Source: an uncultured Verrucomicrobiota bacterium (GTDB lineage: Bacteria > Verrucomicrobiota > Verrucomicrobiia > Limisphaerales > UBA9464). Taken from it: a stretch of DNA of 64,000 nucleotides. The stretch lies in contig CAIVQB010000090.1 in the NCBI GenBank assembly GCA_903907925.1, positions 1 through 64,000 on the forward strand, written 5' to 3'. This document shows positions 1,948 through 3,491 of the stretch, piece after piece. A model generated the notes under the pieces. That model was not told where the DNA came from. It did no database searches and saw only the letters and a program-made list of their open reading frames with translations. A program made the translations under genes and the position numbers. Positions within the stretch are counted from its first letter, which is position 1. Each line of letters starts with the position of its first letter.

Positions 1948-2012
1948 TCAGCGCCATTCGCGCAGCGGAACTTCGCCGGCCGGGCCACCGCGGGATCGCT
2001 TGTGGATTCCGA
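1948..2012 (-). repeat. 65-bp repeat, proximal copy (3' end of intact ClC gene)
   Basis: This is the last 21 codons plus stop of the ClC gene; it begins exactly at the TGA. The partner copy is at 1101-1165. The two copies flank the toxin-antitoxin module as direct repeats. Confidence 0.85.
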
Positions 2013-3261
2013 TGCGTTGGGCGGAATAGATGCTGGAATGGCCGCTGAAGAGGTAGGCGACAAAGCAGGCCACCGCGAATTCGACGGCGTGGGCGGCTCC
2101 GAAGAGTTCGATGCCCATCACGGTGCAGGCGAGGGGGGTGTTGGTCGCACCGGCAAACACGGCCAGGAATCCCAACCCGGCGAACAGGTCGATCGGTGCG
2201 CCCAGCAGGACGGCCAGGGTGTTTCCCAACGTGGCGCCAATGAAAAATAGCGGCGTTACTTCGCCGCCTTTGAATCCGCAACTGAGGGTCAACGCCGTGA
2301 ACAACAGCTTCCAGCCCCAGCTCCAAGTCGTCGCGCCACCGGGATTGAATGCCGACAGAATGGTGACGGTGCTGCTGTTGGGTCCGTGAACGCCGATACC
2401 CAGGTAGTCCCGGGTGCCGACCAGGTAGACGAGAGCGATGATCAGCAGTCCACCGATGGCGGGTCGCAACGGGGTCCAGGGCACCCAACGTTTCCATTCG
2501 TGTTGCAGGCCATGGGTGAGGCCGGCGAACAGACGGCTGACCCAACCGAACACCATTCCGCCGAGGACGACCTTTAACAGCAGAGAGCCGTTCCAAGCCG
2601 CCGTCTTCTCACCGAATTCGACCACGCTAATGTGGTATTGCGTGTGATGGACGCCCCAGAACGAACAGGTGGCATCGCCCACAATACTCGCCACCAGCAC
2701 CGGGATCAGTGCCTGATAGTTCATTCGCCCGATCACCAGCACTTCCATGGCGAAGATCGCCCCGGTGAGGGGTGTCCCGAACACGGAACCGAAGCCCGCC
2801 GCCACGCCAGCCATCAACAGCAGGCGCTGGTTCTCCGGTTTGAATCCCAGCCAACGACCGTAGGCGCTGGCCAGGCTGCCACCCATCTGGACTGCCGTGC
2901 CTTCGCGTCCTGCCGAACCGCCGAACAGATGGGTCAGCAGGGTGCCGATGAGAACCAGTGGCGCCATGCGTGTGGGGACGCCGCCGCCCGGTTCATGAAT
3001 CTGGTCGAGAATCAGGTTGTTTCCGCCCTCGGCCGATTTACCGACCTGGTGATAGAGCCACCCGACCGCGAATCCGCCCACCGGCAGCAGGAACAACAGC
3101 CATCCGTGCTCCCAGCGCAGTTCGGTGACACAGTCCAGCAGCCAGAGGAACAGTGCCGAGGCGGAACCGGCCAGCAGGCCGACCGGGACGACCCAGACCG
3201 TCCAGAGGCAGAGTTGCCGCAGGGCATCCAGTGGATCCCGCCAATCAAGGATTCGCTTCAT
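1948..3261 (-). CDS. ClC-family anion transporter, probable CLC-F fluoride/proton antiporter
   Basis: A 437-residue polytopic inner-membrane protein of the ClC family. The gating-glutamate motif is GREGT at 118-122 (E120) rather than the GREGP of chloride transporters. The position of the chloride-binding GSGIP motif carries GGNNL (79-83). Later helices hold GSVFGTPLTGAIFAMEV and GGEVTPLFFIGATLGN. From family knowledge, the GREGT and NN changes are those of the CLC-F clade, which exports fluoride in exchange for protons. The upstream leader reads as a fluoride riboswitch with an intrinsic terminator, supporting that substrate. The start at 3261 is ATG, 28 bases after the terminator U-tract. 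The C-terminal 21 codons are duplicated beyond the toxin-antitoxin pair. If the riboswitch call is wrong, a chloride or other halide substrate is possible. Confidence 0.88.
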   Translation of the reverse strand: MKRILDWRDPLDALRQLCLWTVWVVPVGLLAGSASALFLWLLDCVTELRWEHGWLLFLLPVGGFAVGWLYHQVGKSAEGGNNLILDQIHEPGGGVPTRMAPLVLIGTLLTHLFGGSAGREGTAVQMGGSLASAYGRWLGFKPENQRLLLMAGVAAGFGSVFGTPLTGAIFAMEVLVIGRMNYQALIPVLVASIVGDATCSFWGVHHTQYHISVVEFGEKTAAWNGSLLLKVVLGGMVFGWVSRLFAGLTHGLQHEWKRWVPWTPLRPAIGGLLIIALVYLVGTRDYLGIGVHGPNSSTVTILSAFNPGGATTWSWGWKLLFTALTLSCGFKGGEVTPLFFIGATLGNTLAVLLGAPIDLFAGLGFLAVFAGATNTPLACTVMGIELFGAAHAVEFAVACFVAYLFSGHSSIYSAQRIGIHKRSRGGPAGEVPLREWR

Positions 3262-3288
3262 CGATGGATCGAGTTCAAAACCGACAAC

Positions 3289-3337
3289 AAAAAACCCCTA
3301 CCGACCGGAGATGCCCAAGGCGGTTCCGGCGGGTAGG
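3289..3337 (-). terminator. intrinsic terminator overlapping the riboswitch expression platform
   Basis: On the minus strand CCTACC (3337-3332) pairs with GGTAGG (3302-3297), followed after a 2-by-2 mismatch by CCGG pairing with CCGG, and then a GG and six U residues (3294-3289). The 5' arm shares CCTAC with the 3' end of the aptamer, so folding of aptamer and terminator should be mutually exclusive. It lies in the leader, before the ClC start codon at 3261, so it acts as an attenuator rather than a gene end. Confidence 0.78.
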
Positions 3338-3399
3338 AGTCATCAGCCCGGGTTTCGGGGCGGTTCACCTTCCGTGAAGGTCGGCAGAATCCATTGCCG
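3333..3399 (-). promoter_or_regulatory. fluoride riboswitch (crcB motif)
   Basis: Minus-strand sequence matches the fluoride aptamer. The first hairpin is CGGCA, loop ATGGATTC, TGCCG (3399-3382). An extra hairpin ACCTTC-ACG-GAAGGT (3381-3367) is inserted in the linker. The second hairpin is GCCC (3361-3358) with GGGC (3349-3346), followed by the conserved CTGATG (3346-3341) and then ACTCCTAC ending at 3333. Loop bases 3392-3387 can pair with 3341-3336 in five of six positions, giving the pseudoknot of the class. The known class binds fluoride with three magnesium ions and in terminator-type examples turns transcription on. The overlap with the 3289-3337 terminator fits that mode. The extra hairpin and one pseudoknot mismatch are deviations that should be tested. 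Confidence 0.82.
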
Positions 3400-3491
3400 T
3401 TCTATGGGGGAGTTCACGGCATTTAGAGCGTGCCGGCAAGCGCGGAGAATTCGACCGAATACGAAAAACGAATCCGCGGTTCCGGTTCGCG

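Follow-up and report, generated by a model that had tools for sequence, protein, structure and literature searches.

The question raised by this locus is whether a gene that family libraries would label a chloride channel serves fluoride efflux under the control of a fluoride riboswitch, and at which step of gene expression such a switch would act. Both gene and riboswitch lie on the minus strand of the 64-kb stretch of DNA that was analysed (the window), and an earlier interpretation made from the letters of that stretch (the sequence-only reading) had proposed fluoride efflux for the gene and an aptamer overlapping a terminator in front of it. Coordinates of all features are collected in Table 1.

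Table 1. Features of the riboswitch locus, given as positions of the window.
Feature	Position	Strand	Basis
Fluoride riboswitch aptamer (RF01734)	3327..3407	-	cmscan 48.1 bits, gathering 34
P1 hairpin CGGCA/UGCCG, 3399-3395 with 3386-3382	3382..3399	-	covariance model and folding
Pseudoknot 5' strand, the P1 loop GGAUUC	3392-3387	-	covariance model and folding
Linker hairpin ACCUUC-ACG-GAAGGU, 6 bp, optional stem	3367..3381	-	class comparison and folding
P3 hairpin GCCC/GGGC, 3361-3358 with 3349-3346	3346..3361	-	covariance model and folding
CUGAUGACUCCUAC, 3' of P3	3346-3333	-	
Pseudoknot 3' strand GACUCC, also in the 5' arm of the platform hairpin	3336..3341	-	sequence, covariance model, folding
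Expression-platform hairpin, terminator-like (hairpin 3341-3293, U-run 3294-3289)	3286..3341	-	-30.1 kcal/mol, z -4.2
GGUAGGGG, within the 3' arm of the platform hairpin	3302-3295	-	
Candidate leader ORF MLSVLNSIHR*, TTG start at 3290 or 3287	3258..3290	-	inferred from relatives
CLC-F fluoride/proton antiporter gene, 437 aa; GNNLI, GREGT, GEVTP	1948..3261	-	ORF, Pfam, PDB match, signatures

The aptamer and the gene behind it

The sequence-only reading had described a first hairpin, the motif CTGATG and a closing sequence in that order, and all of them were found where it had placed them. A covariance-model search with the fluoride riboswitch model (cmscan) bears this out with a match well above the gathering score (E 3e-10) in which RF01734 is aligned over its full length (positions 1-64), and P1, P3, the pseudoknot and the conserved core are all present. 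The aptamer is the sole Rfam match at the gathering cut-off within the window and the single fluoride riboswitch detected by an Rfam search of the 4.6-Mb genome, and it is predicted to bind fluoride. Five of the six pairs of its pseudoknot can form, the exception being one U x C mismatch (3389 x 3339).

This mismatch and the 6-bp linker hairpin, both of which indeed exist, had been taken for unusual details. To place them, we compared 95 aptamers (L001-L095) collected from 384 genomes of the class, among which the window's bit score ranks with the better ones. Stems of 4 bp or more occupy the P1-P3 linker in 56 of the 95, which rules out a rare insertion, and an inner mismatch at the same position as in the window occurs in 20. 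Given these frequencies, hairpin and mismatch are features of a subgroup and not peculiar to this locus. By raw counts that span several families and ignore kinship, 17 of the 19 class aptamers whose pseudoknot closes with C-G are mismatched inside it, versus 8 of the 76 lacking that pair; this suggests that weaker pairing in the middle balances the stronger closing pair, in what may be a compensation of pairing strength.

Like the RF01734 (crcB motif) switches of Bacillus cereus crcB and T. petrophila, the window has P1, P3, the pseudoknot, CUGAUG, CUCCUAC and a terminator-type hairpin built in part from the pseudoknot's 3' strand. It differs from them by the linker hairpin that is frequent in its class, by a C-G closing pair plus inner mismatch in place of a U-G wobble, and by an expression platform with a possible Shine-Dalgarno sequence and leader ORF.

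The adjoining gene encodes a Voltage_CLC protein (Pfam), and the two motifs previously read as setting it apart from chloride transporters, GREGT and GGNN, are there as claimed. CLC-F proteins are defined by GNNLI/GMGLI, GREGT/V and GEVTP (PMC11139923), and the window protein carries all three of these published signatures (GGNNLI, GREGT and GEVTP). Its best PDB matches are the CLC-F structures 6D0J, 6D0K and 6D0N (222-226 bits), of which the fluoride/proton antiporter 6D0J is closest at 226 bits, while chloride CLCs reach 31 bits at most and the chloride models of NCBIfam score far below cut-off. Signatures, PDB scores and NCBIfam scores together rule out a chloride-channel identity. With 6D0J, the CLC-F of Enterococcus casseliflavus, the protein shares GREGT/V, GEVTP, the gating and inner glutamates and the threonine and tyrosine equivalents (E118, E318, T320 and Y396 align to E120, E334, T336 and Y412 of the window protein); the two differ at the selectivity position, where M79 of the methionine subtype corresponds to N81 in the GNNLI subtype of the window. 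Riboswitch control, as predicted here, is common in this family of antiporters.

Genomes usually use one type of fluoride exporter exclusively (PMC11139923). No CrcB/Fluc was found in this 96%-complete genome, and its second and only other CLC (contig C125) is devoid of the three CLC-F motifs. The window protein most likely exports fluoride, because it has the CLC-F signatures and the match to 6D0J, CrcB was not found and the other CLC lacks the motifs. Signatures and PDB scores hence support the earlier suggestion of a fluoride-efflux gene behind a chloride-channel label, in a genome that has no other known fluoride exporter; gene and aptamer are the only fluoride exporter and the only fluoride riboswitch detectable in it.

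As a separate observation, a second copy of the CLC-F 3' end (65 of 77 nt identical) lies about 850 bp beyond the first on the minus strand (window 1957-2030 and 1100-1178), and the two copies flank a pair of Phd/YefM-like and PIN-domain genes (1884-1172). The arrangement resembles an insertion at the 3' end of CLC-F that duplicated the gene end or brought it along.

Expression platform and predicted switching

The 5' arm of the platform hairpin, GACUCCUACC, includes the entire 3' strand of the pseudoknot, and therefore aptamer and platform hairpin are mutually exclusive. The hairpin is followed by a U-run, and none of 200 shuffled sequences folded into an equally stable structure. What had been described as a terminator whose 5' arm reuses CCTAC is consequently present in the sequence as a strong hairpin with a U-run that shares the pseudoknot strand, and termination itself is a prediction. 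Such an overlap of pseudoknot and terminator is the standard and conserved apo/holo switch of the fluoride riboswitch class (PMC13273304, PMC11077080) and the established mechanism of those members that act on transcription (PMC13273304). The platform hairpin escaped a simple terminator consensus scan because that scan is restricted to perfect stems with loops of 3-8, and a consensus scan for sigma-70 promoters found none, though this consensus may not suit the phylum.

Overall, the locus would operate as a fluoride-responsive ON riboswitch governing the CLC-F fluoride/proton antiporter. Without fluoride, GACUCCUACC would quit the pseudoknot and pair with GGUAGGGGUU, forming a very stable hairpin with a U-run at which transcription would most likely halt; the same hairpin would also hide the sole Shine-Dalgarno-like sequence in the leader (see below). 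With fluoride and magnesium, the pseudoknot of GGAUUC and GACUCC would be held and block the platform hairpin, so that the full mRNA would be made, CLC-F produced and fluoride pumped out of the cell. We are highly confident in the joint claim that the minus-strand element is a fluoride riboswitch, that the adjoining gene is a CLC-F gene and that fluoride switches it on, the direction being the predicted part of it. For termination as the main step our confidence is lower, at somewhat better than even. The part of the earlier reading that concerned the terminator may also cover only some of what this hairpin does, as GGUAGGGG could double as the Shine-Dalgarno sequence of the leader and the platform may act on translation besides termination.

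Two features of the pseudoknot speak against an ON riboswitch: the inner mismatch and the C-G closing pair, which takes the place of the U-G wobble on which switching depends in B. cereus (PMC11077080). The frequent coincidence of the two in the class, noted above, means that the balance may thereby be restored. The negative promoter scan and the lack of a riboswitch above cut-off in the other sampled family members also count against it.

Distribution and descent of the cassette

Pairs of riboswitch and CLC-F gene recur in Verrucomicrobiota, Bacteroidota, Chloroflexota, Pseudomonadota and Actinomycetota. Within the window's own family, a CLC homologue is carried by 46 of 50 genomes, mostly at CLC-F-like scores, and a riboswitch above cut-off is absent from all other sampled genomes. 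A search at E values up to 0.5 revealed no diverged aptamers before the CLC genes of nine family loci, two more such loci have none at the gathering cut-off, and inspection by eye showed none either. The riboswitch is a local trait within the family, given that its other sampled members are without one above cut-off though most have a CLC homologue. At two loci outside the window (L113 and L197, 641-726 in each), a fluoride riboswitch precedes a Fluc-like ORF upstream of a CLC-F gene, and both exporter types seem to stand side by side there.

This isolated occurrence, together with the pseudoknot mismatch, would fit an aptamer that is a decaying relic and has lost its switching. We consider that very unlikely: its score is among the better ones of the class, the conserved core is intact, the identical mismatch recurs in 20 of the class aptamers, and the platform hairpin is highly non-random (z -4.2). 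Compatible with a working ON switch is a gain of riboswitch and CLC-F gene as a cassette by horizontal transfer. The window CLC-F shares 73% identity with an Opitutaceae-type homologue and 68% with that of the nearest congener, and in the tree it groups with two congeners in a clade rich in riboswitch-bearing Opitutae (support 96/91 and 95/89), separate from the CLC proteins that most of its family carry. An AU test against a single family clade was borderline, however, with no clear rejection (p 0.0515), and the two congeners in that clade have no riboswitch, which calls for either a loss or a separate gain. From these comparisons a transfer of the cassette seems likely, and we give an even chance to its arrival from an Opitutae-like bacterium.

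Leader ORFs in relatives and a candidate at the window

At riboswitch-CLC-F loci of relatives, a Shine-Dalgarno sequence that pairs with the aptamer strand precedes an ATG that does not belong to CLC-F. Instead, in 15 of 19 Verrucomicrobiota loci (window excluded) this ATG opens a leader of 10-82 codons that runs into the CLC-F start, its stop sharing 4 nt (AUGA) or 1 nt with it; the leader was counted from the first ATG except at L116, where the second was taken. For a random frame in Markov sequence this pattern has P ~3e-8, or 3.5e-7 minus two near-copies, figures that are optimistic in that the loci are still related. Over all targets of fluoride riboswitches in the class, 25 of 43 short leaders close likewise on a long ORF, compared with 11% at control positions. 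These long ORFs encode CLC-F, enolase-like (L013, L017), antiporter-like membrane and Fluc-like proteins, the names other than CLC-F having been read from the first residues. The leaders of related loci vary in length by whole codons (33, 29, 30 and 31; 43, 43, 37 and 35; 36, 36 and 26), and several have strong Shine-Dalgarno sequences. At many Fluc loci, the sequestered Shine-Dalgarno directly serves the start of Fluc. Overlaps of 4 nt between leader and next gene were seen at L002, L007, L008, L013, L017, L022, L025, L036, L060-L062, L064, L069, L075, L076 and L078, where the next genes are antiporter-like, enolase-like or Fluc-like.

Leader coupling is not exclusive to riboswitch loci, since a permissive search found overlapping upstream ORFs at 20 of 52 CLC-F loci with no detected riboswitch. 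Three of these (L117, L206 and L210) show an apparent aptamer core below the Rfam cut-off, and an ATG in their P3 loop starts a leader of 33-34 codons that is conserved in sequence and overlaps the CLC-F start.

In the window, the sequence downstream of the hairpin reads GGUAGGGG-UUUU-UUG-UUG-UCG-GUU-UUG-AAC-UCG-AUC-CAU-CGA-UGA, and its final UGA lies within the AUGA of the CLC-F start, so that the stop of the candidate leader overlaps the gene by 4 nt. This leader comprises 9-10 codons, starts with TTG and has no ATG, and chance could well have placed so short an ORF in the right frame. The window thus weakly suggests a lesser version of the layout of its relatives, with a putative Shine-Dalgarno sequence inside what had been read as a terminator.

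The platform could instead be mainly translational. The aptamer strand would then conceal GGUAGGGG as the Shine-Dalgarno of the TTG leader, fluoride would allow the leader to be translated, ribosomes ending at its UGA would restart on the overlapping AUG of CLC-F, and the U-run would merely be the spacer between Shine-Dalgarno and start. Such a relay is known by experiment from the ppe2 B12 riboswitch of Mycobacterium tuberculosis (PMC11260477), where the stop of a short ORF and the main start likewise share an AUGA, although ligand and aptamer are others, that switch is an OFF switch, and the arrangement in the window is deduced from sequence. The leaders of the 15 Verrucomicrobiota loci and the 25 across the class argue for it as well, as do the whole-codon differences in leader length, the strong Shine-Dalgarno sequences, and class Fluc loci with GGAGUUUUUUAUG-type hairpins exactly at Shine-Dalgarno distance. 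Yet the window offers only TTG starts for a leader so short that chance could explain its frame; its hairpin (-30.1 kcal/mol), which ends in six U, greatly exceeds in length those of clear leader loci (-6 to -20 kcal/mol); and overlapping upstream ORFs also occur at loci with no detected riboswitch, some of them with diverged aptamers. We regard a mainly translational platform as possible but doubtful. Since chance yields short in-frame ORFs often enough and clear leader loci have much shorter hairpins, termination is kept as the main step, with leader coupling as an addition or alternative. That translation contributes through a TTG leader coupled to CLC-F by the AUGA overlap, alone or with termination, we would put at somewhat below even.

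While the locus of the window has proved correctly read and mostly ordinary, the class-wide leader layout, which it represents weakly, is the part worth pursuing. We tentatively propose, leaning slightly against rather than for it, that the fluoride riboswitch of Verrucomicrobiota commonly governs the translation of a short leader and that CLC-F, antiporter, enolase and sometimes Fluc genes would be reached only by termination-reinitiation at AUGA or GUGA. The window would then be a TTG-started member whose hairpin combines hiding of the Shine-Dalgarno with termination. No report of a leader relay for fluoride riboswitches was found in the literature searched, which lacks most subscription papers. 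If confirmed, the layout would add a second relay step to the control exerted by fluoride riboswitches throughout a phylum, would account for the many aptamers there with neither a terminator nor a main start codon nearby, and would bear on genome annotation, in which such leaders are easily missed.
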